Shown one piece after another: positions 12,483 to 25,742 of a stretch of DNA of 64,000 nucleotides; the stretch's first letter is position 1, and the number at the start of each line of letters is the position of its first letter. Location: positions 186,001 through 250,000 of the forward strand of contig NZ_JAUSZZ010000001.1 in the NCBI RefSeq assembly GCF_030818075.1. Reading direction: 5' to 3'. The notes under the pieces are model-generated. The model was not told the origin of the DNA. It did no database searches and worked only from the letters and a program-made list of their open reading frames with translations. The position numbers and the translations under genes are program-made. This DNA comes from Microbacterium proteolyticum. Lineage in GTDB: Bacteria > Actinomycetota > Actinomycetes > Actinomycetales > Microbacteriaceae.

Positions 12483-12576
12483 CGGGGCGGAAGACGAGAG
12501 AACCCCCGCCGGCGCTGAGGCTGGCGGGGGTTCTGTCGTGTATTTCGTGGCGGTGACGGTGGGATTTGAACCCACG
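12483..12576 (-). repeat. partial tRNA-Ser 3' end with flank: left attachment-site duplicate of the island
   Basis: Bases 12548-12576 are identical to 22492-22520, the 3' end (with encoded CCA) of the intact tRNA-Ser on the minus strand. Only the CCA, acceptor 3' strand and T-arm are present, so this copy is not a tRNA gene. Colinear similarity, with scattered mismatches and a constant offset of 9944 bases, extends left to about 12483 and includes a terminator hairpin. This is the usual scar of integration into a tRNA 3' end; the element lies to the right of this copy. Confidence 0.8.
12500..12533. terminator. hairpin terminator inside the left repeat
   Basis: GAACCCCCGCC (12500-12510) pairs with GGCGGGGGTTC (12523-12533). 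It corresponds to the terminator downstream of the intact tRNA-Ser at 22438-22483, and also lies downstream of the hypothetical gene ending at 12407. Confidence 0.7.
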
Positions 12577-12747: not shown

Positions 12748-13710
12748 CTAGGTTGTGCTGCTTCGACGAATGACAATCTGTGAGGAAACCGACTTCCATT
12801 TTGGCTCGGGCGGTGCCGGCTGAGTGTCTGCAAGCTGGCTGTGGCGGTCTCGCACGTGCGGGAGATACACGTGCGATGCGCTGAGCACGGCCGCGAGGGT
12901 CTCTCGAAGATACGAGCGCTGGACCTTCTTCAAAGTCGCCGAGGTGAAACGGTCTTGTTCTTCGCACTCGAAAACCACGACACCGGTCTTGCGGTTGTCT
13001 CGGTCAAGACGTTCGGCGTAGATGCTCCGAGAATGCATGGTAAGCGCCGCGGCCTCAGCCGTGGTGAAACCCTGCGACACCAACGAAGCTTCCCACGCCT
13101 CGCGGTCAGCGTGCTCGTTGTTCTCGATCACGAATTTCTTGGCCCACGCCACCCCGATCGCCCCCTGGGACAACGGATAGGAGCTGCGCCCGCGTTGCTC
13201 CAGAAATGGGTTCGATGAGCACCTAGCGACGAGGATGAATTCGTCATCCTCTACGGAGTACACCGAAACGCGCGTATCCACCTCTTGGTCACAGACGTAC
13301 GTGTGCAGCTGCAGGAGAATTTCGTCGAGCGCGCCCTGCAAGGCGGCCCGGTGCGCTTCCACGTCCTCCGCGGATCTTTCCCGCTCCGACGAGAGCTTCT
13401 CCTCTGCCGCGGCCTTCTGCCGCTCGAGATCCGCGTAGGTCGGCTTGAACCAAACAAAGACACCGAACACCCACAACAAACCCAGAACCAGGCCGACGAT
13501 GAGCCAGACGACCGCGGGCCACTCGAAGACGCCGGGTATGCCATACGTCCCTGCAATGGTGAGGCAAGCGGACACCGCGATCGACAGAAGGACCTGCGCT
13601 GGGTCGCGCAGCCCTCGCAACCGCCAGTAAATGCGCGTTACGCCCGCGACATGATCGTGCGGCACGTCTGGCGTCGCGCTAGGCGAGCGCGAGCGCCGAG
13701 AACGCGCCAT
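12748..13710 (-). CDS. membrane-anchored GAF-like protein of the island
   Basis: This 320-residue protein has a basic N-terminus and two membrane helices (VLLSIAVSACLTIAGTYGI and VVWLIVGLVLGLLWVFGVFV, about residues 41-90). A coiled-coil follows (DLERQKAAAEEKLSSERERS), then a cytoplasmic domain of about 150 residues. That domain has strands TRVSVYSVEDDEFILVARC, a PLSQGAIGVAW turn and TGVVVFECEEQDRF, a GAF-like layout typical of ligand-sensing domains. The stop is four bases from nothing essential, and the next gene upstream is only four bases away (13715), so the two are co-transcribed. No known family name is assigned; the GAF reading is by pattern only. Confidence 0.65.
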   Translation of the reverse strand: MARSRRSRSPSATPDVPHDHVAGVTRIYWRLRGLRDPAQVLLSIAVSACLTIAGTYGIPGVFEWPAVVWLIVGLVLGLLWVFGVFVWFKPTYADLERQKAAAEEKLSSERERSAEDVEAHRAALQGALDEILLQLHTYVCDQEVDTRVSVYSVEDDEFILVARCSSNPFLEQRGRSSYPLSQGAIGVAWAKKFVIENNEHADREAWEASLVSQGFTTAEAAALTMHSRSIYAERLDRDNRKTGVVVFECEEQDRFTSATLKKVQRSYLRETLAAVLSASHVYLPHVRDRHSQLADTQPAPPEPKWKSVSSQIVIRRSSTT

Positions 13711-13714
13711 CAGG

Positions 13715-14029
13715 TCAAGCGCTCACGAGCTGCGAGCGGACTCGCCTTACGTCGTCGGAGCTGTTCACGCTGGATGCGATCTGGAAGGCGTGCTCGAGGA
13801 GCTCTGTAGCGGCGTCTTCGATGTGACCCGCGTCCATCCCGTTGAACCGCAGCCCAACCTGAATGTTGCGGGTGTCCGCGTCGGGGCGCACAAAGTACGC
13901 CGTAACAGCGGCCATGCCTAGATCAGAGATAGCGACGCCGACAGCGTGCTCGAGGTTCTCGACGAGCGACGACCACGGCGCAGTGGCCTCGCTGCTTACC
14001 TGTACAACCGTGGTCAGTTCGACAGCCAC
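13715..14029 (-). CDS. hypothetical island protein, 104 residues
   Basis: I chose a GTG start at 14029 because AGGAGG lies five bases upstream, whereas the ATG ten codons earlier lies before that ribosome site. The product begins MAVELTTVVQVSSEATAPW and has a two-strand/helix pattern: ELTTVVQV, VTAYFVRPDADTRNIQVGLRF, then helices TELLEHAFQIASSV. It is soluble and acidic. It precedes the membrane GAF-like gene by four bases and is likely in the same transcript. I do not recognise the family. Confidence 0.6.
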   Translation of the reverse strand: MAVELTTVVQVSSEATAPWSSLVENLEHAVGVAISDLGMAAVTAYFVRPDADTRNIQVGLRFNGMDAGHIEDAATELLEHAFQIASSVNSSDDVRRVRSQLVSA

Positions 14030-14273
14030 ATTCGCCTCCTGCGAGTAGATAGCCGCCACCCGCGTTGTGGGCGGTCCACCTCTGAAAGTGGGGTGCTCCT
14101 GGTGCCCTCGCGGGGTGCAGACGTTTCGGTCTTACTTCTTCGATACTAGGGGCTTGGCGCCGAGCTCGGTGCGTCTTGCCAGCCAGGTTTCCTTCTGCTT
14201 CTGAGGGGCCGAGCACATACGGAGTACTGGTGCGAAGCGAATCCTGGGGGTAGTGCATAGCTACCCCTTCGAG

Positions 14274-14558
14274 TCAGAACCCAATGCCGCGGAAGCTTGG
14301 ACCGTCCGCCTGGTCACGCGGCAGCAGACGTGGGGCCGGCGGCGGTGGCATCTTCCTAGGGGGAGCGACGTCGAGCACGGCCACAGGACCGAGTAGCGGG
14401 AAAATCGTTACGTCGCCCTCGTCGGACTGGAAATGGTACGCCGACGAGCTGTCTCCCGTCGCCACAATCTCCGTTAGCTCTGCGTCCACTTCTTCGGCCG
14501 TCTTACCGGAGTCCTTGAGGGCATACCGAACGCCCCCGTAGTGCACCTGTACCGTCAT
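14274..14558 (-). CDS. hypothetical island protein with Pro-rich tail
   Basis: The start at 14558 (MTVQVHYGGVRYALKDSG) gives 94 residues. The first 65 residues form an alternating strand/helix pattern (VQVHYGGVRYAL, TAEEVDAELTEIVATG, GDVTIFPLLGPVAVLDVAP). The tail is rich in Pro and Arg (KMPPPPAPRLLPRDQ) and may be disordered. Gene density and orientation match the other minus-strand island genes. The function is unknown. A longer frame to 14834 exists but is compositionally implausible. Confidence 0.5.
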   Translation of the reverse strand: MTVQVHYGGVRYALKDSGKTAEEVDAELTEIVATGDSSSAYHFQSDEGDVTIFPLLGPVAVLDVAPPRKMPPPPAPRLLPRDQADGPSFRGIGF

Positions 14559-14685
14559 GCGACTGAGCCTAGACGCCCGCGAAGCGTCACCAACTGCTGA
14601 TGATTGGCACACGACCATCTGCGAGCGCCGAGCGCCCATTTTCCCAATGCTTGGAGCCCCCGACCGCCGGACCGATGCTCGTCGC

Positions 14686-15231
14686 TCATCGGACGAGGCT
14701 CCCGCGGAGGGTGTCGAGCGCTGCCTTCGCGGCGTCATCGTCAGTGAGCGGAGTCCCGTCATATCCGCGGCTGGCGAAGGTGAACGCGATCCCCGCCACA
14801 GTGACGTCGACCTCGAGCTGCGAGTGCCGGGCACGCCGGTCTGTGCCGTCGTAGTAGTTGTGACGGGTCTTCACCTGGATGCGGGCGACGTCGCGCAGCT
14901 TGTGGACAGACACAGTCGTCTCCGCGGCGTCGGCCTTGATGGTGACGGCCGTTGCGACGACGACGACATCGGTGTGCAGGACCGCGAGGCTGCCGGTCCC
15001 GTTCTCGTCGAGCTTGCCTGCGATCGCGACGGGCATCCGATATTCCCCGCCAGCTAGGAGCACCGCCGAGATGAGCTGCCCCACTGTTCGGGCGCTAACG
15101 CCGGACGACCCCTCCGAGTCGCTCAGCGCTTCGTCCCACCCTCGGAGGGATCGGATACCGCGGTATATGTGCTCGGGTGGTTGCAGCTCGTTGCCTATCA
15201 TGCGGGGCACGATACAGGCGGCCTCCGACAT
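14686..15231 (-). CDS. hypothetical island protein
   Basis: This protein has 181 residues from ATG 15231, or 171 if ATG 15201 (MIGNELQPPEHIYRG) is used; neither start has a good ribosome site. The central part is beta-rich (YRMPVAIAGKL, LAVLHTDVVVVATAVTIKAD, ETTVSVHKLRDVARIQVKTRHNYYDG, SQLEVDVTVAGIAFTFASRG). It resembles a PH-like barrel with a final helix (DDDAAKAALDTLRGSL). The PH-like resemblance is only a pattern impression. It is eight bases from the next upstream gene (stop 15239), suggesting co-transcription. Confidence 0.55.
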   Translation of the reverse strand: MSEAACIVPRMIGNELQPPEHIYRGIRSLRGWDEALSDSEGSSGVSARTVGQLISAVLLAGGEYRMPVAIAGKLDENGTGSLAVLHTDVVVVATAVTIKADAAETTVSVHKLRDVARIQVKTRHNYYDGTDRRARHSQLEVDVTVAGIAFTFASRGYDGTPLTDDDAAKAALDTLRGSLVR

Positions 15232-15238
15232 TCCGATT

Positions 15239-15613
15239 TCATGGCCCGGGCTGCGCCTGGTGCACTATCCCTCCGATGAGTTCGCGCAGAACGTCCGCTC
15301 GCGCTGGGGGCGGCCACTCAACCCACGCGCGCACCAGCCTAGCGAATGCGGTGTCGTCACCGTTTAGGTTCGCCGCCACCAGCCGACCCGCCATCAGCGC
15401 CGCTTCGGTGGTTGTGTCATCGACATCGGGATACCAAGTCTGAGTGCGCGGGTCGGGGGCCACGGTCTCGGATGCCAGTTCAGCGAGATGGATGAGGGCA
15501 TCCATGTCGCGGCGGCGGTAGTGCCAGCTGTGCTTGTCGATCCACGTCTCGAGGTCATCGCGGTTGCCGGTTTGGAGTGAGGAGCTCAGGGTTACGAGAG
15601 CGCAGTCGGCCAT
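15239..15613 (-). CDS. hypothetical island protein, 124 residues
   Basis: This soluble, mostly helical 124-residue protein contains NRDDLETWIDKHSWHYRRRDMDALIHLAELASE and a second helical part LMAGRLVAANLNGDDTAFARLVRAWVEW. No catalytic or membrane motif is visible. It lies immediately upstream of the 14686-15231 gene on the same strand. Its composition is intermediate between the AT-richer island genes and the chromosome. I cannot assign a family. Confidence 0.5.
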   Translation of the reverse strand: MADCALVTLSSSLQTGNRDDLETWIDKHSWHYRRRDMDALIHLAELASETVAPDPRTQTWYPDVDDTTTEAALMAGRLVAANLNGDDTAFARLVRAWVEWPPPARADVLRELIGGIVHQAQPGP

Positions 15614-15961
15614 CCGGCTGAGGGGCGATGCTCTGTCATGGCGCGATTCTGCACCAGTCGCCGGTTAGAATCCGTGCGCGTCGAGGGCACACTCCAACGA
15701 CTCCTGTTGCTCGCGCCACGACGCGAGGGTCGAAGCCGTAGAAGGTGTTCCCGGTGCTGACGAAGCCGAACGCAGCACCGGTGGTCGAGGCCGCTGTGGA
15801 CGCCGGTGCGGACGCCAGCGCGGGGTATGGCAGGATCGGCCAGAGGTTGGACGGCTGCCGATCTCGCCGTCGTGCGCGTTCCGGAGCGTTCCGGCGCGGA
15901 TGGCGCGGCGCAGGCGATCGACGCCCTCCTGCCCACAGGCCATGTCGACCTCGTCCGGGGG

Positions 15962-16090
15962 AAGCATGTGAAGCTCGACACCTACGCCGACCTCTTCGAC
16001 GCCGACTTGGACGGCGTTGCCACGGCGCTCGACGAGGCCCGACGCTCAGCAGGTGTTGCCGAAACGTTGCCACGGATGCACGCGACCTAG
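15962..16090 (+). pseudogene. C-terminal remnant of a tyrosine recombinase (phage-type integrase)
   Basis: The last 42 codons of an open frame read KHVKLDTYADLFDADLDGV then ATALDEARRSAG. This is the characteristic end of actinobacterial tyrosine integrases, where LDTYADLFDxDLD follows the box II HxxR region and contains the nucleophilic Tyr. Upstream codons in the same frame no longer resemble an integrase and no HxLR motif is found, so only the tail survives. Its presence inside the tRNA-Ser-flanked island supports integrase-mediated arrival. Confidence 0.55.
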
Positions 16091-16322
16091 TGACGAAGGC
16101 CCCGCCTACCGCGTGATTCTGCGGGAGTCGGGGCCCTCGTGGTGGCGGGCACACTGAGGGAACGTTGGCACGCAGATTGCTGGTCGCGCGCAGTCTCGCA
16201 CCGCGACGCGCTTGACGTGTTTCCGGCGGATCGACCGCAGCTCCGTGCGAGACTCGTCGCTGTGCAACCGCTGGAACCCGTCTGTCGAAGAGTCCCCGAT
16301 AGCACTGGCACAGTACGCGGGA

Positions 16323-16693: not shown

Positions 16694-17080
16694 TCAACGA
16701 TCGCGTAAGTTTACGTGGACTGTCGACTGCACTGCCTGTATGTTCCTGTTGCCGATCGCGGTCTGATGGGCCGCCGGAACCTGATCCCTCCATTCGGCCA
16801 CTAGGGCTTGCAAGTGCGCAACGTCCGCCTCGTCGACAATCTCCGCGTCGATCACATCGGCGAGCTCGTCCAGTGCGCGCTGGCTGTCTGGGTATCTCTC
16901 GACCCCATCCAACTCGTCAGTGGACGACAACCTTTGCCGAAGCCACGACACCACCTTTGCCCCAACTTTGGACGTCTCATCGACGACACCGGACGCGGTC
17001 TTGTCGATCCCCCTCTCGCAGACTTTCGCGACCAAGGCGGCCGCAATCGCACCCAGAGTGACGGAAACTGGCTCAACCAT
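16694..17080 (-). CDS. candidate helical (Bell/HeLo-like) effector with C-terminal amyloid-type motif
   Basis: The start at ATG 17080 is fixed by AGGAGG seven bases upstream and gives 128 residues. The N-terminal half is an amphipathic, Ala/Gly/Val-rich helical stretch (MVEPVSVTLGAIAAALVAKV then VVDETSKVGAKVVSWLRQRL). A second helix pair follows (DSQRALDELADVIDAE, ADVAHLQALVAEW). The C-terminus (residues 105-125) carries GNRNIQAVQSTVHV, which matches the motif near the N-terminus of the adjacent divergent NACHT protein. Small proteins of this design next to NLR genes are known as amyloid-signalling cell-death effectors (Bell domain plus BASS motif). Assignment here is by architecture, not by a search. 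Confidence 0.6.
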   Translation of the reverse strand: MVEPVSVTLGAIAAALVAKVCERGIDKTASGVVDETSKVGAKVVSWLRQRLSSTDELDGVERYPDSQRALDELADVIDAEIVDEADVAHLQALVAEWRDQVPAAHQTAIGNRNIQAVQSTVHVNLRDR

Positions 17081-17304
17081 CCACGAGCCTCCTGACATTT
17101 CAGATAGGGATTACACACTCATTTCTAGCCTCGCGGCACCGCGAGCTTAGCGGCTGCCGGGTGGCCGCAGAGAGCACGAACCCATGAATGCACTCCACGA
17201 GGATGCAGGCGGTCGACGAAAGCGCGGCACCGGCGACTTCGACGAAGCGCATGCGCCTCCAGCATCGCTCGGCGCGGCATAATCACTGGAGTGGGGTGTA
17301 GATC
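17081..17304. promoter_or_regulatory. divergent promoter region between effector-like and NACHT-Rel genes
   Basis: The 224-base AT-richer gap separates two divergent genes of the proposed system, so a shared control region is expected. No convincing -10/-35 pair or operator palindrome could be singled out by eye. Confidence 0.35.
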
Positions 17305-20300
17305 GTGCCGGCTCGATCAGAATCTGAGCTGCGACGAGATTGGAGTTTGAGAATCGGCAGCACAATCGAACCGTCAACGCCTAGGCCGCCAGCGAGTGTG
17401 CACCAGTCCGTGACAGGTCACCATAATGTTGTTGCTGTCAACTCTACGGTCACCATTTCTGCAAGCACCGGCGGGCAAGGTGAATCACAGTCATTCGATT
17501 GGCACTCTCTCCTGCAAGCCGCCAGCGCCTCGGTTCTTGAGATACGAGCCAATGTCCTTATGCCGGTCGCGAGTGGAATTTGGACAGACTACGACACGCT
17601 AGCGACTGTCCTTCCTGAGGGGACGCCGGATGATCCGCACGCGTTGCGCATCAGGTCGAGCACGGGTGAGCACTTGCAGTGTGTGCGAATGGTTACGCAC
17701 GGGAACGGCGTGACCCTCCTCAATGTGGAGCCGAGGAGCGATCGGGAATCTGGCATCATCCCTGCGCTGTGCAACTCGCTGCTCAGCGAAGGTGAGAGCG
17801 TTGTCGGAACCATGAGTAACGATCCGACCGCACCGGAAAGGCTTGAGCAAATTGACTTCTCCGCCGTTGCGGGCGGCGCCGAGAACGGTTCGTGGGCCGT
17901 CAGGGAGATCAGGGGCCTTCCGTCAAATCGCGACGTGAGCGGCGCGGCCGTCTTGAACCTTCGCACCGGTGGTGTGTGCGGACTGCTCTCTCGCGGGCCC
18001 CAGGGTGACTACACAATCGTGGCGCTCGCGCAACCAGCGTGGGAGCACGCGCATGAGTCGTGGAAGGATGCGCTAACATCCAGCCAGTTGCATGCCGGGG
18101 CGTGGCCATGGCCACCGAAGGAAGTTCGTCAGTATCTGCGAATGCTCGCCCACTTCTGCACCGAGCATCCCTACCCAGCAGCGATCTTTGAGGCCCCGCC
18201 CCCACCACTGGAGCGGGTGCATGTCAGGCAGGCCACCGTCTCCATCGGTCCAGGGTCGGCATCGGGCACCGGGGACGCAAGCACCTCGGAGCCGATCGAG
18301 TCGATCCTCCAGGGTGGCCTGCTAGTCGGCCCTCCCGGTGGCGGTAAATCGAGCGCGCTTCGGAGGTTGTGCGCTGAGCAGGCCGACCTGATCCTGCGCG
18401 GAGAATCGGGGCGAGTTCCGATTCTCCTGCATGCATCGGAGATAGATCTTGATGCCCCCCTGTCGCAATCATTAGTTCGGTCATTGAACCGCTCACTTTT
18501 TCATAACGAACCAGTATTGGGAGACCATTTCTTCTCCACACCCCTCGGCGCAGCAAGGAAGTGGCACTACTTCATCGATGGCCTCGACGAACTCCTTGAT
18601 AGAGAAACGCGCAAAAAACTTTTGGCGAAGCTGGCCCTAGCGCTTGGCAACGCTATGACCGATTCAGTCACAGTAGGGTCGCGACCGCTTCCCCCTGACG
18701 AAGTCCGAGCATACCTTAAGCATCAGTTGCCGAATCGCGCGTGGATAATCCAGAGCCTCTCCCCAGACGGCGTCCGCGAGTTCATTCGCGGATGGTTCGA
18801 TGCGCTCGGCCTGGACGAAGTCGAGAAGCGGGTCGCCAGCCTTATCTTCGACCTTCGCCAGGCCGGCGCAGATGAACTAATGACAAATCCGCTCATGCTG
18901 ACAATGATATGTCAGCTGCACTACAGGAAACCCACTGAAGGGCCACCGTCTAACCGAACCGCGCTCTTCGACCGATACCTCGAGGCGCTTAGAGAAAAAT
19001 TCTTTGACGCGGAATCAAACGTGCAGAAGCACGCGAGAAGCCGCTTGGAACGTTTCGGCCAGCAAGCGACAGCGTGGGGTGAGCACGCGATCCTAAGCAT
19101 GTACGAATGCCTCGGCCACGTCGCGCTTGAGTGGCTTCGCGACGATGCGCCGCCCACTCTACCGGCTCTCGTCGCTGCTCTGCCGCCACCACCCCGCGGT
19201 ATACCCGGCTCCGGAACGACCGCGCTCGTCGGGGAACTTGCAACGAGAACTGGTATTGCCTCGTCGACTGAGCCAGACCTCGTCTTCATTCACCAGACGC
19301 TCGCTGAGCATGTGGCGGCGTGGCGACTTCGAGCCGATTCTGGGGCTTCGATGGCGAGTATCGGCGTGCTATCCACTAAGTCACACCGACTTGGTTCAAA
19401 CTGGTCGTTCCTGAGGTTTGTGGCGAACGCCTGGATAGACGTCGATGCATTTTGCACCTGGCTCGCAGCTAACCTCGTGGCTGAGCCTGCATCCACGGTG
19501 AGGTTCATTGCTCAACTCGCCTGGGACGGCGTCCCAATTCCTCCGTCGCTCGCTCCCTCATTACTCAATGCAATCGGTCGGCAGCTAAAGGGAGCTGCGA
19601 GCGACACGAGTGAGCTCATCGACTCTGTACGGATCTTGTCGGATGTTGCTGATCCGACTGAAGTGAACGACGCCCTCGCCAATATCGTAGTCGGCAAGTT
19701 CCCCTCAGACGCGCGCCGCTGGGCAATCGTCACCCTAGCCGGGCGTGTTGGCTACACGTCCTCGACACACATCCGTCGCTCGCTCCCGTCGCTCGAGCAG
19801 GTCCGGCCCTCCGTTGACGTCGTCACGTCACTACTGTCAGCCCAGTCAGACTTGTTTCGGCAGCCACACTCGGCGCAGGCTATTCGCGAGGCTGGCCTCG
19901 CGTTGCTCAGTGATCCTCAGGCGGGTCTGCGTCGGTTGGTGCCTCGAATCTTTTCCCGTTCGGCGCGGCGTGATGACGTCGAGCAGCTTCTTCGGACGGT
20001 GCACACACACCATCGAAAGGGCGATCTCTCGATCGTCGCACGCGCGTACGACGTGGCCGATGGCGCGCATACGGGTCAAGTGCGACAGAGCGGTGAGCCT
20101 TACATTAGCCACCCGCTGGCGGTCGCGCAGATCCTCGCCGAACTGGGCATCGGCCCCAAAATTATTGCCGCGGCGCTGCTCCACCGCACAGTCGAAGACA
20201 CCGACTATCAGCTCAACGAACTCACCGCTGACTTCGGCGACGAGGTGGCGATACTCGTCGACGGGGTGGCCAAGCTAGACAAGGTCAAGTACGGCGACAG

Positions 20301-22137
20301 CGTTAACGCCGAGACCGTGCAAAAGATGATCGTGGCAATGTCGAGAGACATTGGGGTCTTGCTGATCAAGCTCGCCAATCGCCTGCACAACGCGCGTACG
20401 TGGGGATTTATAGCGCCAGAGAAGGCACGCAAGATGGCGACCGAGACTCTTGAGGTCTATGCTCCACTGGCCCACCGCCTCGGTATCCAAGCCATCAGGA
20501 GCGAGCTCGAAGACCTGTCGTTCGCGGTGATGCACCCCACGCTCTACGCCGAGATCGAGAGCCTCGTCTCTCAACGCTGTCCCGATCGCGAGCGGTATGT
20601 GCAAAACGTCATCGACGCGGTCGACGCCGACCTTCGCGAGTTGCGCGTGCGCGGTCGGGTCGTGGGCCGTGCCAAGCCGCTGTACTCGATATATCAGAAG
20701 ATGGTCGTGCGAGGTCGCGAGTTCGACGACATTTACGACCTCATCGGCATCCGCATCCTGGTGGGCACCGTTCGCGACTGCTACGCCGTGCTCGGCGCCA
20801 TCCACGCTCGCTGGACCCCGCTGCCAGGGCGCTTCAAGGACTACATCGCCACGCCCAAGATCAGCCTGTACCAGTCGTTGCACACGACAGTGATCGGCCC
20901 CGGTGGACGCACGGTGGAGATCCAGATCCGCACCCACGAGATGCATCAGCAGGCCGAGTCCGGCGCCCCTGCTTATTGGAAGCGCAAGGACCAGGCCGCG
21001 GGCGGCAAGCCCGGCACGGAGTCCGTCGATGCCGACATGGCGTGGATCGCCCACATCTCCGACTGGCAGGCCGAGACCGCCGACCCGGGGGAGTTCCTCG
21101 ATTCGCTGCGGTTCGAGATCGGCGCCAAAGAGGTCTACGTCTTCACCCCGAAGGGCCGAGTCGTCGGTCTGCCTACGGGCGCGACCCCCGTCGACTTCGC
21201 GTATGCCGTGCACACCGAGATCGGCCACCGCACCATGGGTGCGAAGGTCAACGGTCGTCTCGTGCCGCTCGAGTCGACGCTGCAGAGCGGCGACGTCGTC
21301 GAGGTGTTCACCTCGAAGGATCCCGACGCCGGCCCGAGCCAGGACTGGCTCGGCTTCGTCGAGACCAGGCGGGCGCGCAACAAGATCCGCGAGTGGTTCA
21401 CGAAGGAGCGGCGCGAAGAGGCGATCGAACAGGGCAAAGACTCGATCGCCCGGGCGATGCGGCGGCGGAACCTGCCCCTGCGCTTGATGAGCCAGGGCTC
21501 TTTCACCGAGGTCGCTCGCCTCTTCCGCTACGAGAACGTCTCGGCCCTGTACGCCGCGGTCGGTGAGGGTCACGTGTCGACGCAGTTGGTGATCGAGAAG
21601 GTCGCCGCTCTCGTCAGCGCCGAAGAGACATCGACGGGCCCCATCGACCTGCCTCAGGTCGGACGCAGCCGCGCCCCGCGCGGGGGCGACTCGGGCGTGC
21701 TCGTGCGCGGCGCTCCCGACATCCTCATCAAGCTCGCGAAGTGCTGCATGCCGGTTCCCGGCGACGAGATCGTCGGCTTCGTGACCCGCGGGAGCAGGGT
21801 CTCGGTGCATCGCGCCGACTGCACTAACCCTCCCTCCCTGCGGACAAACTCCGAACGTCTCGTCGAGGTCGCATGGGCCCCCACGACAGAGAGCGTGTTC
21901 CTTGTGCGGATCCGGGTCGAGGCGCTCGATCGCACAGGACTCCTCAGGGACGTCACGGATGTGCTCAGAGCGCACCACGTTAACATGCTGTCGGCGACGG
22001 TCTCTGTGACCACTGATCGACTGACGCTCAGCCGCTTCATGTTTGAAATTGGCGACACAGTCCACCTCGATCGCGTATTGAACGCGGCGCGTCGGATCGA
22101 AGGCGTTTACGACGTTTACCGTGACACGTCAACGTGA
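17305..22137 (+). CDS. NLR-like NACHT NTPase fused to a full-length Rel/SpoT protein
   Basis: This 1610-residue protein is one uninterrupted frame with a GTG start right after an in-frame TAG (17299). Residues 33-52 carry the motif GHHNVVAVNSTVTI. Residues about 70-250 look like a trypsin fold with Ser212 (DVSGAAVLN) but Thr101 and Gly135 where His and Asp are expected. The NACHT-type NTPase spans about 330-600, with P-loop GPPGGGKS (342-349) and Walker B FIDGLDEL (423-430); helical repeats follow to about 870. Residue 875 onward is a complete actinobacterial Rel (starts LRRLVPRIFSR). It has an HD domain with HR at 960-961 instead of HD and Asn1025 instead of Asp, a synthetase domain with Asp1145, Glu1205 and RFKD (1176-1179), TGS (about 1277-1338), the CC motif (Cys1480-Cys1481) and ACT (about 1530-1608). 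Synthetase changes include Pro1125 (usually His) and Ser1187 (usually Asn). It is probably a stress or phage sensor; hydrolase activity is predicted lost and synthetase activity is uncertain. Confidence 0.85.
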   Translation: MPARSESELRRDWSLRIGSTIEPSTPRPPASVHQSVTGHHNVVAVNSTVTISASTGGQGESQSFDWHSLLQAASASVLEIRANVLMPVASGIWTDYDTLATVLPEGTPDDPHALRIRSSTGEHLQCVRMVTHGNGVTLLNVEPRSDRESGIIPALCNSLLSEGESVVGTMSNDPTAPERLEQIDFSAVAGGAENGSWAVREIRGLPSNRDVSGAAVLNLRTGGVCGLLSRGPQGDYTIVALAQPAWEHAHESWKDALTSSQLHAGAWPWPPKEVRQYLRMLAHFCTEHPYPAAIFEAPPPPLERVHVRQATVSIGPGSASGTGDASTSEPIESILQGGLLVGPPGGGKSSALRRLCAEQADLILRGESGRVPILLHASEIDLDAPLSQSLVRSLNRSLFHNEPVLGDHFFSTPLGAARKWHYFIDGLDELLDRETRKKLLAKLALALGNAMTDSVTVGSRPLPPDEVRAYLKHQLPNRAWIIQSLSPDGVREFIRGWFDALGLDEVEKRVASLIFDLRQAGADELMTNPLMLTMICQLHYRKPTEGPPSNRTALFDRYLEALREKFFDAESNVQKHARSRLERFGQQATAWGEHAILSMYECLGHVALEWLRDDAPPTLPALVAALPPPPRGIPGSGTTALVGELATRTGIASSTEPDLVFIHQTLAEHVAAWRLRADSGASMASIGVLSTKSHRLGSNWSFLRFVANAWIDVDAFCTWLAANLVAEPASTVRFIAQLAWDGVPIPPSLAPSLLNAIGRQLKGAASDTSELIDSVRILSDVADPTEVNDALANIVVGKFPSDARRWAIVTLAGRVGYTSSTHIRRSLPSLEQVRPSVDVVTSLLSAQSDLFRQPHSAQAIREAGLALLSDPQAGLRRLVPRIFSRSARRDDVEQLLRTVHTHHRKGDLSIVARAYDVADGAHTGQVRQSGEPYISHPLAVAQILAELGIGPKIIAAALLHRTVEDTDYQLNELTADFGDEVAILVDGVAKLDKVKYGDSVNAETVQKMIVAMSRDIGVLLIKLANRLHNARTWGFIAPEKARKMATETLEVYAPLAHRLGIQAIRSELEDLSFAVMHPTLYAEIESLVSQRCPDRERYVQNVIDAVDADLRELRVRGRVVGRAKPLYSIYQKMVVRGREFDDIYDLIGIRILVGTVRDCYAVLGAIHARWTPLPGRFKDYIATPKISLYQSLHTTVIGPGGRTVEIQIRTHEMHQQAESGAPAYWKRKDQAAGGKPGTESVDADMAWIAHISDWQAETADPGEFLDSLRFEIGAKEVYVFTPKGRVVGLPTGATPVDFAYAVHTEIGHRTMGAKVNGRLVPLESTLQSGDVVEVFTSKDPDAGPSQDWLGFVETRRARNKIREWFTKERREEAIEQGKDSIARAMRRRNLPLRLMSQGSFTEVARLFRYENVSALYAAVGEGHVSTQLVIEKVAALVSAEETSTGPIDLPQVGRSRAPRGGDSGVLVRGAPDILIKLAKCCMPVPGDEIVGFVTRGSRVSVHRADCTNPPSLRTNSERLVEVAWAPTTESVFLVRIRVEALDRTGLLRDVTDVLRAHHVNMLSATVSVTTDRLTLSRFMFEIGDTVHLDRVLNAARRIEGVYDVYRDTST

Positions 22138-22139
22138 CT

Positions 22140-22408
22140 AGCAGAAAAACACTGAGTCGGCGGTTTCGATCGCGGCGCGAACAGCGCTCGCTGCGGAGTG
22201 CAATGCGAAGCAGACCGCACGTGATCTCGGGATCAGCGAGTCGTGCCTGCGGAACTCAACGAACCCGTGACGCGCTCGAATCCGGCCGCAAGGCCGGTGT
22301 CACGACCGATGAGCACAAAGAGGTCGTCGAGCTGAGGCGCCGCAATCGCGTGCTCGAGATGGAGAACGAGATCCTCAAGCGAGTCGGCGTACTTTGCTAG
22401 GCAAAAGC
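22140..22408 (+). pseudogene. IS3-family transposase OrfA remnant with frameshifts
   Basis: One frame (from about 22157) reads AVSIAARTALAAECNAKQ and TARDLGISESCLRN, the helix-turn-helix of an IS3-type OrfA, and then stops. A second frame continues with TTDEHKEVVELRRRNRVLEM and ENEILKR, the OrfA leucine zipper. A further two-base loss near 22383 shifts the usual SAYFAR ending into a third frame. OrfB and terminal repeats are missing. It directly abuts the stop codon of the NACHT-Rel gene, at the right end of the island. Confidence 0.75.
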
Positions 22409-22426: not shown

Positions 22427-22520
22427 CGGGGCGGGAGACGTCAGAACCCCCGCCGGCGCAAGGGCTAACGGGGGTTCTGACGTTTGTTTGATGGCGGTGA
22501 CGGTGGGATTTGAACCCACG
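22427..22520 (-). repeat. right attachment-site repeat of the island
   Basis: This direct repeat partners 12483-12576 at a constant offset of 9944 bases. Bases 22492-22520 are the identical 29-base core within the intact tRNA-Ser. The left 65 bases match imperfectly and include a terminator. The better-conserved core in the tRNA 3' end is the likely crossover site. Confidence 0.75.
22438..22483. terminator. strong terminator downstream of tRNA-Ser
   Basis: ACGTCAGAACCCCCG (22438-22452) pairs perfectly with CGGGGGTTCTGACGT (22469-22483). A second GC hairpin (GCCCCGGC, 22408-22415, with GCCGGGGC, 22425-22432) lies just to its left. Confidence 0.7.
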
Positions 22521-22582
22521 GTAGGGGGTTACCCTACACAACTTTTCGAGAGTTGCACCTTCGGCCGCTCGGACACGTCACC
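22492..22582 (-). tRNA. tRNA-Ser(CGA)
   Basis: Read on the minus strand, the acceptor 5' strand GGTGACG (22582-22576) pairs with CGTCACC, followed by discriminator G and an encoded CCA (22494-22492). The anticodon stem CAACT/AGTTG closes the loop CTCGAAA with anticodon CGA. A long variable arm (GTAGGG...CCCTAC type) and T-arm GTGGGTTCAAATCCCAC identify a class II serine tRNA. Its 3' end is duplicated at 12548-12576 and is the integration target of the island. Confidence 0.95.
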
Positions 22583-22876: not shown

Positions 22877-23830
22877 ATGAGCGTGATCGAGAACTCCAAG
22901 CTGACGGTCGTGGGAGCGGGAAGCGTGGGGGCGAGCGTCGCGTACGCGGCCCTGATCCGCGGCTCGGCGCGGCACGTCGCGCTCTACGACATCGCGACCG
23001 ACAAGGTCGAAGCCGAGGTGCTCGACCTCGCGCACGGCACGCAGTTCACCGGTTCCAGCGACATCACCGGGGGCAGTGACGTCTCCGTCGCCGAGGGCTC
23101 GCACGTGGTCGTCATCACCGCCGGCGCGAAGCAGAACCCGGGGCAGACCCGCACCGAGCTCGCCGCGACGAACGCGCGCATCATCCGCGACATGATGCCC
23201 CAGCTGCTGGAGGTCGCCCCGAACGCCGTCTACGTCATCGTGACGAATCCGTGCGACGTGCTGACCGTGCTCGCGCAGGAGGCCACCGGCCTGCCGACGC
23301 GCCGCATCTTCGCCTCCGGCACCGTGCTCGACACCTCGCGCCTGCGCTGGAAGATCGCGCAGCGCGCCGGGGTGGCCACCTCCAGCGTCCACGCGTGGAT
23401 CGTCGGCGAGCACGGCGACACCGAATTCCCGCTCTGGTCCACCGCCACGATCGGGTCGGTGCCCATCACCGAGTTCGACCTGCCGGACGGCACCCGCTTC
23501 GACCACGACGAATTGGATGCCATCGCCGTCGACGTCCGTGACGCCGCGTACAAGGTCATCAAGGGCAAGGGAGCGACGAACTACGCGATCGGTCTGTCGA
23601 GCGCGCGCATCGTCGAGGCCATTCTGCGCGACGAGCACGCGATCCTGCCGGTCAGCACCGTGCTCGACGACTTCCACGGCATCAGTGGCATGGCGCTGTC
23701 CGTCCCGTCGATCGTGAGCGCGACGGGCGCCGTGTCCGTCACCGGCACGCCGTTCTCCGACGGAGAGGCTGCGCTCCTGCGTCGGTCGGCCGACGCGCTG
23801 ACCGCGGTCGCCGACTCGCTCCGCGCCTGA
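22877..23830 (+). CDS. ldh: L-lactate dehydrogenase
   Basis: This 317-residue NAD-dependent enzyme interconverts pyruvate and L-lactate. The ATG at 22877 begins [20 protein letters not shown], the dinucleotide fold. The Asp that selects NAD lies in [10 protein letters not shown]. Substrate and catalytic residues are seen in KQNPGQTR (Arg), VTNPCDVLT, the proton-relay His in [14 protein letters not shown], and an arginine in [11 protein letters not shown]. The length is normal. It lies alone between the tRNA-Ser and a repeat-rich intergenic region. Confidence 0.93.
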
Positions 23831-23887
23831 CCGTCTGGCCGCGGGCGGGCAGCGGGCGGCGGGCGGCGGGCGGCGACGCACCCCCAC

Positions 23888-24298
23888 GCATAAACACGTT
23901 CCGTGCGCATAAACACGTTCCGTGCGCATAAACACGTTCCGTGCGCGTAAACACGCAGCGAGCGTGTTTACGCGCACGGACAGTGTTTCTGCCACGACGC
24001 CGGCCTGTGAGCAGTGGCGGATGCCGCGGCCTGCGGGGCCTCCGCGCTGCAGGTCCTCCGGGCTGCAGGAGCTTCGGGCTGCAGGAGCTTCGGCCGGCGG
24101 GGCCGCCGGGCCGCGGGGCTCCCGGGCCGCGGGGCCCCCGGGCCGCGGGGCTCCCGGGCCGCGGGGGGCGCTGGCCAGAGGCCGGGATCGCCTGAGCGCC
24201 CGGGTGCGAGCGCGCGGCGCAGCGCACGCGTAAACACGTTCCGTGCGCATAAACACGCAGCGAGCGTGTTCCTGCGCACGGAACGTGTCTATGCGTGT
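23888..24298. repeat. intergenic tandem/inverted repeat array (GCATAAACACGTTCCGTGC units)
   Basis: Three contiguous 19-base copies of GCATAAACACGTTCCGTGC start at 23888, 23907 and 23926. A palindrome with stem GCGTAAACACGC/GCGTGTTTACGC follows (23945-23973). The same words recur in mixed orientation at about 24227-24298. Between them lies GC-only sequence with repeated CCGCGGGGC and CTCCCGGG blocks (about 24055-24180). No gene is supported in this 540-base gap between ldh and radA. The array could be a regulator-binding cluster or a nuclease-resistant mRNA end. Confidence 0.7.
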
Positions 24299-24374
24299 GG
24301 CCGAGACGGGAAAGCGACGATGGATGCCAGCACCCGGGGCCGGCGATGTCGGAGGCCCCGCATAGCCTGGATCC

Positions 24375-25742
24375 ATGGCATCCCGACGTCCCGCTGCGAC
24401 CCCCGCTCCCTACCGCTGCACCGAATGCGGATGGACGACGCTCAAGTGGGTCGGTCGTTGCGGCGAGTGCCAGTCGTGGGGCACCGTCGTCGAGGCCGCC
24501 GAGCAGACCGGGATCGTGCGCTCCATCGTCCCGGTGGCCCCCGGGGCCGCGCGCGCGGCTCGGCGCATCACCGAGATCGACACGCAAGACGCACCCCGCC
24601 GCACGAGCGGGGTGGGCGAGTTCGACCGCGTCCTCGGCGGGGGCATCGTGCCGGGCGCAGCGATCCTGCTGAGCGGCGAACCCGGGGTCGGTAAGTCCAC
24701 CCTCCTGCTCGAGGTCGCCGCGCAGAGCGCGCGGGCCGGGCGGCGCGTGCTCTACGCGAGCGGCGAGGAGTCCGCGGCGCAGGTGCGGCTCCGCGCCGAG
24801 CGCACGGGCGCGCTGCACGACGAGCTCTTCCTCGCGGCCGAGACCGACCTCGCCACGATCCTCGGGCACATCGATCAGGTGGAGCCGGGCCTGCTCATCG
24901 TCGACTCGGTGCAGACGGTGTCGTCGGCGCACAGCGACGGCGCGGCGGGCCAGCCGGCGCAGGTGCGCGAGGTGGCGTCGGCGCTCATCCGCGTCGCCAA
25001 AGAACGCGGGCTCCCGGTCATCATCGTCGGCCACGTCACGAAAGACGGCTCGATCGCAGGCCCCCGCATCCTCGAGCACCTGGTCGACGTGGTCTGCCAC
25101 TTCGAGGGCGATCGTCAGACGTCGCTGCGCTTCGTCCGCGCGCTCAAGAACCGCTTCGGCCCCACGGACGAAGTGGGCTGCTTCGACATGACCGGCACCG
25201 GCATCGCCGAGGTCGCCGACCCGAGCGCGCTGTTCCTGGGCCATGGCGAACCCGAGCCGGGTACGTGCGTCACCATCGCCATGGAGGGGCGCCGCGCCCT
25301 GCCTGTCGAGATTCAGGCGCTGGCCGTGCGCCAGACCGCGCCGAACCCTCGACGCATCGTCAACGGGGTGGACTCCTCGCGTGTCGCGATGGTGCTCGCC
25401 GTGCTCGAGAGCCGGATGGGGCTGACGCTGTCGGATCGCGACGTGTACGTGTCGACCGTCGGGGGCGTGCGGCTGGTGGAGCCGGCCGCCGACCTCGCGA
25501 TCGCGATCGCCGTGGCAAATGCCGTGAAGAACCGGAAGGTGTCCAAGCGTCTCGCCGCCATCGGCGAACTCACGCTGACGGGTGAGATCCGCAACGTCAC
25601 GCAGGCCGCGCAGCGGGCGTCCGAGGCGAAGCGGCTCGGGTACCACACCGTGCTCGACGCATCGTCGCGCAAATTGGCGCAGGCGTTGAACGAACTGCAG
25701 GTGCGGGGTATGCCGCGCGACGACAGCGAACCGGGGTTCTGA
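24375..25742 (+). CDS. radA: DNA repair protein RadA (Sms)
   Basis: This 455-residue RecA-like branch-migration helicase acts in recombinational repair. The N-terminal C4 zinc finger is YRCTECGW...GRCGECQSWG (about residues 14-36). The P-loop is SGEPGVGKSTLLLEV (about 101-115), with Walker B LLIVDSVQTV, and the RadA-specific motif KNRFG (in ALKNRFGPTDEVG, about 259). The C-terminal Lon-protease-like domain (VSTVGGVRLVEPAADLAIA) lacks the protease dyad, as usual. It is separated from ldh by the repeat array and followed by a minisatellite-like region. Confidence 0.95.
   Translation: MASRRPAATPAPYRCTECGWTTLKWVGRCGECQSWGTVVEAAEQTGIVRSIVPVAPGAARAARRITEIDTQDAPRRTSGVGEFDRVLGGGIVPGAAILLSGEPGVGKSTLLLEVAAQSARAGRRVLYASGEESAAQVRLRAERTGALHDELFLAAETDLATILGHIDQVEPGLLIVDSVQTVSSAHSDGAAGQPAQVREVASALIRVAKERGLPVIIVGHVTKDGSIAGPRILEHLVDVVCHFEGDRQTSLRFVRALKNRFGPTDEVGCFDMTGTGIAEVADPSALFLGHGEPEPGTCVTIAMEGRRALPVEIQALAVRQTAPNPRRIVNGVDSSRVAMVLAVLESRMGLTLSDRDVYVSTVGGVRLVEPAADLAIAIAVANAVKNRKVSKRLAAIGELTLTGEIRNVTQAAQRASEAKRLGYHTVLDASSRKLAQALNELQVRGMPRDDSEPGF

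Follow-up and report, generated by a model that had tools for sequence, protein, structure and literature searches.

The stretch analysed here, a window of 64,000 nucleotides (positions 186,001 to 250,000 of contig NZ_JAUSZZ010000001.1) from the single-contig genome of Microbacterium proteolyticum, encodes a NACHT-Rel fusion receptor of 1610 amino acids (17305-22137, forward strand). The reading we favour, tentatively and with slightly less than even confidence, is that of an immune receptor of the nucleotide-binding leucine-rich repeat (NLR) type with a catalytically dead Rel in the usual C-terminal sensor place, where it would most likely act as an integrated decoy, and with a membrane-type effector as its output. 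As an earlier note made from the letters of the DNA had described, one uninterrupted frame holds the NACHT NTPase domain (residues 339-499; 18319-18801), with the P-loop GPPGGGKS and the Walker B motif FIDGLDEL, and then Rel. From the N- to the C-terminus follow a short motif (residues 31-53; 17395-17463), common to the tail of an adjacent small protein and resembling amyloid signalling motifs, a trypsin/V8/HtrA-like fold (residues about 61-265; 17485-18099), the NACHT domain, a mostly helical region (residues 500-874; 18802-19926) and the full-length Rel-like module (residues 875-1610; 19927-22134). P-loop, Walker B motif and an NLR-like fold with helical regions characterize the NACHT domain as NLR-type, its Pfam score being below the cut-off in one search and above it in another. 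The Rel module shows the HD-SYNTH-TGS-RIS-ACT order of bifunctional Rel, a RelA/SpoT homologue (RSH), with HD (hydrolase) at residues 914-1061 (20044-20487), the synthetase at 1121-1230 (20665-20994), TGS at 1277-1336 (21133-21312) and AH/RIS and ACT at 1352-1503 and 1530-1606 (together 21358-22122). The complete Rel announced in the earlier note is therefore complete in its domains and length, but its active sites, as read from the sequence, are broken. An assembly join is unlikely, because the genome is a single contig and four homologous fusions occur in other records.

These further fusions, at least four, are found in Microbacterium forte, in a Plantibacter species and in the metagenomic proteins P0001 and P0009, and the absence of the fusion from all relatives, which the earlier note had considered, is not what was found. 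The N-terminal 880 residues as query retrieved seven proteins, two of them with Rel, namely P0001 (1575 amino acids; 49% identity over 97%) and P0002 of M. forte (30% identity over 61%), the latter encoded in genome G088 by a frame of 1306 amino acids from stop to stop. P0009 (1368 amino acids), among the 120 of 391 matches listed for the Rel-part query, reads as NACHT then Rel and is possibly cut at its N-terminus by a contig end, while the fusion of genome G642, found by a family-level genome search, is taken as that of Plantibacter sp. VKM Ac-1784. In a tree with five relatives that have no Rel and terminate in HEAT-like or other regions, the five fusions group together by their N-terminal halves as one clade (100/100), and Rel starts in all five fusions with a similar version of the native phrase, at a similar junction. 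The M. forte and Plantibacter fusions stop just after TGS and have no RIS/ACT half; in P0001, AH/RIS and ACT are 28% and 43% identical to the best native match. Matches to the N-terminal half occur in at least four of 366 genomes of the genus (this genome and G088 with Rel fusions, two others without Rel), at least two of 398 of the family (this genome and G642) and at least two of 396 of the order (this genome and one without Rel), all lower bounds with at most two candidates scored per genome; the absence of Rel in the other NACHT matches (G112, G154, G1051) was judged by frame reading. No relative was present in the viral contigs or phage records searched, and in six plasmid records there are low-identity matches to the N-terminal half that all cover less than 80% of it, with no Rel in the annotation of the one inspected. 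Scans of genome contigs gave no relative in one case and only Plantibacter sp. VKM Ac-1784 in another.

The fused Rel was compared with 186 native Rel rows (185 distinct), picked by BLAST from genomes of the genus, family and order, loci L072 and L076 included, together with 118 longer actinobacterial Rels (P0010-P0127); every residue named in the following is invariant in 186 of 186 rows. Invariant-column and leave-one-out counts derive from a smaller native set, its loci chosen for containing TVED and IRT so that some columns are conserved by choice, in which L072 and L076 (two of 68 loci) are dropped and only 20 of the 118 proteins are included; repetition with the 186 rows agrees at every named residue. 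The hydrolase carries D961R and D1025N and the synthetase P1123A, N1187S, A1222P, H1224Y and Y1227R, which leaves neither the full set of metal and catalytic residues of the former nor that of conserved residues of the latter intact. D961 aligns to D81 and H1224 to H344 of Mycobacterium tuberculosis Rel (structure 5xnx; counted by hand). In that enzyme, H80 and D81 changes reportedly abolish hydrolysis and G241E and H344Y synthesis (Avarbock and colleagues, 2005). The H80A variant retains synthesis and has lost hydrolysis (PMC8118318). The lesions differ among the fusions. P0001 lacks the HWxYK segment along with five of the seven hydrolase residues, the Plantibacter and M. forte proteins lack hydrolase residues plus K1132 and E1205, and P0009 lacks K1132, R1176, K1178, E1205 and Q1207. 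Invariant synthetase residues are changed in all five, with K1132 and E1205 affected in three of them and the HWxYK segment in the present protein and P0001, and hydrolase residues are lost in four of the five. The fused Rel accordingly does not look like a working enzyme and no member looks bifunctional, which, together with the differing lesions, fits catalysis having been lost repeatedly in a fold that persists.

The same lesions bear on the proposal, also made in the earlier note, that the Rel half is the output, whereby a hydrolase-dead Rel in oligomerised receptors would flood the cell with (p)ppGpp or modify tRNA. The hydrolase is indeed the more plainly broken half here, with the ten named synthetase residues R1122, K1124, K1132, D1145, R1176, K1178, Y1189, H1193, E1205 and Q1207 kept, the broken protease triad here and in P0001 calls for another output, and RelA domains are found among the signalling domains of conflict systems (PMC7159879). 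However, E1205 and K1132 are lost in P0009 and the Plantibacter and M. forte fusions and HWxYK is lost in P0001, while the motif-matched neighbour would supply another output. H1224Y, moreover, lies at the H344 position of M. tuberculosis Rel, where H344Y reportedly abolishes synthesis. As synthetase lesions occur in every fusion, an alarmone output is largely disfavoured and appears improbable. Similarly doubtful is a pseudo-Rel that senses a small molecule by binding (p)ppGpp or a phage-made nucleotide without turnover; P0009 keeps the hydrolase residues and the present protein most synthetase ligand residues, but different pockets survive in each member and the M. forte and Plantibacter fusions have lost residues of both.

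Unlikely, though for this protein not implausible, is the remaining option of the earlier note, a physiological detector of deacylated tRNA and stalled ribosomes which, through TGS, RIS and ACT, would fire upon an assault on translation such as that of tRNA-cutting phages. No domain of the present Rel is better preserved than TGS (0 of 26 invariant columns changed; ratio of nonsynonymous to synonymous substitution rates, dN/dS, 0.035, the most constrained part of the fused Rel), RIS and ACT are present, and the stringent response of Staphylococcus aureus needs the TGS and DC motifs (PMC6053245). The option is nevertheless weakened by the other fusions: because those of M. forte and Plantibacter end after TGS and the RIS/ACT half of P0001 is degraded, a mechanism common to all five cannot need RIS/ACT.

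Whether the module is in use can be judged from its rates of change. Between the fused Rel and the host Rel, dN is 0.095 and dS 0.70, a ratio of 0.136 as against 0.015 for a native pair (host and L007), a difference of about ninefold, and as the ratio is still constrained though relaxed, the fused Rel is, as far as substitution rates can tell, under relaxed yet purifying selection and in use. A chance fusion in decay, in which a receptor caught a rel duplicate that is now degenerating, could account for this ninefold difference, for the rarity of Rel fusions (at least two of 366 genus and at least two of 398 family genomes, one of these being the present genome) and for the remnants carried by the surrounding island. 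It is, however, hard to reconcile with 1610 codons without a stop, with a ratio of 0.136 and with five fusions in one NACHT clade at a similar junction, and is disfavoured as very improbable.

The same genome keeps a normal Rel, a frame of 754 amino acids which is 85% identical to the fused one. A tree built from 25 native Rels and those of this protein and P0009 puts the present Rel inside Microbacterium (14 rows, support 100), grouped with the subgroup of its host (6 rows, 95), beside and not within the host and its three nearest species, whereas the Rel of P0009 branches with other genera of the family, outside Microbacterium, at a fork that is not resolved. To force the two into one clade costs 89 log-likelihood units (approximately unbiased test, p-AU 5.3e-6). 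Since the N-terminal halves form one clade while these two Rels do not, Rel has, on this phylogeny, been captured or replaced at least twice on the NACHT chassis. The Rel branches of P0001 and of the Plantibacter and M. forte fusions are too long to place, and the tree of all five fusions, which groups long branches with one another, was set aside for this purpose. The present protein and P0001 may share a single capture: in one of the trees on which placement is based, their Rels, that of P0001 on a very long branch, are joined with a support of 55.

At the other end of the protein, the trypsin-like fold reads in the alignment as that of a pseudo-protease. Here and in P0001 there is a gap of two residues where the triad His should stand, and another residue takes the place of the Asp, the Ser being kept in the present protein; the Plantibacter and M. 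forte fusions keep His, Asp and Ser, and the former scores as Trypsin_2 (4.8e-12). Directly upstream of each of these fusions lies a Trypco1/CU044_2847 gene, while the only Trypco1 match in this genome, at C1:2867999, does not adjoin the receptor. P0003, a metagenomic relative of the NACHT half, has a Cap4-type nuclease domain where the trypsin-like domain would be.

The gene adjoining the present receptor encodes instead a divergent neighbour of 134 amino acids (16694-17098, reverse strand), predicted to be helical with a loose tail (predicted local distance difference test, pLDDT, 68) and a candidate Bell-like effector partner. Its tail is the 22-residue motif AAHQTAIGNRNIQAVQSTVHVN (16709-16774, reverse strand), which resembles SVHQSVTGHHNVVAVNSTVTIS near the receptor start with a score of 51; none of 5000 tail shuffles reaches this score and the best of 421 other frames of the window attains 46. 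The head of P0001 against the neighbour tail scores 50 and the tail of the neighbour homologue P0129 against the receptor 68, as compared with 33 for the more distant homologue P0130 (reached by 496 of 5000 shuffles) and 16-23 for the Plantibacter and M. forte heads. Like motifs at the head of an NLR and at the tail of a small protein encoded next to it are the layout of pairs with a bacterial amyloid signalling sequence (BASS) and a Bell protein, and by this analogy receptor and neighbour are a probable amyloid-type receptor/effector pair.

Taken together, three features speak for a bait for a Rel-acting factor, namely the place of Rel where a sensor is expected, the catalytic losses in a preserved fold and the recurrent acquisition of Rel, which makes the decoy, tentatively, the best fit among the three options of the earlier note. 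In the resting cell, the receptor would be monomeric and closed. A factor from an invader, able to bind Rel or to remodel it, would bind the fused pseudo-Rel too or, alternatively, pairing of the host Rel with the pseudo-Rel would be the trigger, as in a guard. Either event would free NACHT for oligomerisation and bring the N-termini together, so that the receptor motif could template the similar motif on the tail of the neighbour, which would then attack the membrane and stop the cell. For the relatives from Plantibacter and M. forte, it would be the intact trypsin-like domain, with its Trypco1 partner, that provides the output. For the family we propose, again tentatively and a shade more cautiously, that one NACHT chassis repeatedly takes in host Rel as bait for phage or plasmid factors directed against the stringent response, that the active sites decay independently and that the output switches between protease/Trypco1 and amyloid motif/membrane effector.

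Several observations weigh against the decoy reading. Among the literature matches listed, there was no phage protein that attacks actinobacterial Rel and no clear actinophage Rel inhibitor. The D1145/E1205 synthetase pair is intact in this protein, and P0009 keeps seven of seven hydrolase residues with one of 68 invariant HD columns changed. In the present Rel, eight of 68 invariant HD and five of 62 synthetase columns are changed, counts equalled by the most divergent natives in leave-one-out comparison (8 and 5), with a mean of 0.17 for left-out natives and 15 to 40 for P0001 and the Plantibacter and M. forte fusions; the case therefore rests on which residues changed and not on how many. 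TGS as a single conserved bait surface holds here and relatively in the Plantibacter fusion but fails in that of M. forte, where this domain is poorly kept (38%; 12 of 26 invariant columns changed), for which reason it is not claimed for the family. There is also no gene-conversion tract from the host Rel: per-domain dS looked uneven, but the best window holds four shared sites, as reached by 1285 of 2000 permutations, and because the sites private to the host that recur in the fusion show no clustering and their share (11 of 49, 22%) is about that of species L012 (16 of 75, 21%), gene conversion was dropped. The sole PADLOC match on the receptor is the defence-candidate model PDC-S33, over the synthetase domain, weak or trivial as are PDC-S33 on P0001 and the Plantibacter fusion and RT-Protease_XI and PDC-M35A on the N-terminus of the latter, and the match to the NCBIfam antiphage model EruA (24.7 bits) is far below its cut-off of 1000. 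As to the neighbour, it is divergently transcribed, has two non-self homologues only, no Pfam or NCBIfam match over cut-off and no known fold (Foldseek), and shuffled receptor N-termini reach the motif score in 4 of 5000 cases.

A conceptual parallel to the decoy reading is found in plants. Immune receptors with a built-in bait copied from a host target protein, NLRs with an integrated domain (NLR-ID), are a hallmark of plant NLR immunity; the bait concept is alike, while the receptor is here a bacterial NACHT and not an NB-ARC protein and the bait a central stress enzyme. Sensing through host targets has bacterial precedents, since bNACHT25 detects phage via the host chaperone DnaJ (PMC12169576) and one CapRel senses a phage protein together with the host target FtsZ (PMC13423816). 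The bNACHT antiphage proteins share the central NACHT, an N-terminal effector region and a C-terminal region, which in the present protein is a full homologue of a housekeeping enzyme and not SNaCT, NCH1 or leucine-rich repeats (PMC12169576). CapRel is likewise an RSH-family protein in phage detection, but its synthetase is the toxin (PMC9712102; PMC13423816), whereas here the active sites are mutated in a full-length Rel at the sensor position of an NLR, unlike CapRel/toxSAS, in which a short RSH combines an active toxin synthetase with an antitoxin at the C-terminus. In BASS NLR/Bell pairs, adjacent genes encode an NLR and a small helical protein that share a motif, located N-terminally in the former and C-terminally in the latter (PMC7889193; PMC8086366); the present genes are divergent, the receptor retains a trypsin-like fold, and motif and neighbour are likened to BASS1-10 and Bell by layout and not by profile. 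Trypsin-NACHT proteins with Trypco1 (CU044_2847), such as the Streptomyces canus plasmid gene OG426_RS00325 with a divergent Trypco1 gene adjoining, have the same domain order, and the M. forte and Plantibacter fusions adjoin Trypco1; the present protein has a broken triad and no Trypco1 gene nearby, and the five relatives without Rel terminate in HEAT-like or other regions. Ternary conflict systems contain RelA nucleotidyltransferase domains in a different architecture (PMC7159879). In agreement with the earlier note, no described NACHT-Rel fusion was found in the open-licence literature searched; bacterial NLR-related receptors are known, and it is Rel as sensor module that is new to us.

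If the decoy reading is true, the plant-type integrated-decoy strategy would extend to bacterial NACHT receptors, and invaders of Microbacteriaceae would attack Rel itself as an under-recognised phage target, the bait being a concrete handle for finding the attacker. The idea is directly testable because an intact native Rel is present in the same genome, and a chassis that apparently alternates between a protease and a motif-paired output is a useful case of effector change in bacterial NLRs.

The receptor gene sits, to judge by its flanks, in an integrated island of about 9.9 kb at a variable site, as indicated by a tRNA-Ser repeat, an empty and a differently occupied site in relatives and an integrase-like piece. 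A 94-bp direct repeat, a probable att site, flanks the island at 12483-12576 and 22427-22520, the right copy overlapping tRNA-Ser(CGA) (22492-22582, reverse strand); the copies are 86% identical, identical in the last 29 bases, and both contain the 3' end of this tRNA. Relative G006 has a single repeat copy and no such island at that site, and relative G007 (L092/L093) a different insertion of about 18.7 kb at the same tRNA-Ser, with an integrase-like gene of 332 amino acids beside the tRNA. A remnant at 15806-16148 (forward strand), without Pfam match, is what we take to be the C-terminus of a tyrosine integrase, and its part 15969-16148 is 89% alike in DNA to the end of the integrase-like gene in G007. 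Defence genes often lie in such islands.

Between the left repeat and the receptor pair lie four small frames (12751-15613, reverse strand) without a Pfam match over cut-off, one of which (12751-13710) gives a weak LeoBC-like PADLOC match (E 0.0009). A short frame with a coiled end directly follows the receptor gene (22134-22400, forward strand) and presumably resembles the start of an IS3-type transposase, with no Pfam match. Outside the window, about 1 kb to its left, lies a short alarmone synthetase gene (L005; G000:C1:184558-184920), to which weaker matches of similar frame length occur in many relatives. Around ldh/radA (23600-24400), phrases such as HARCVF and RTERVYA recur in overlapping frames in the manner of intergenic repeats.
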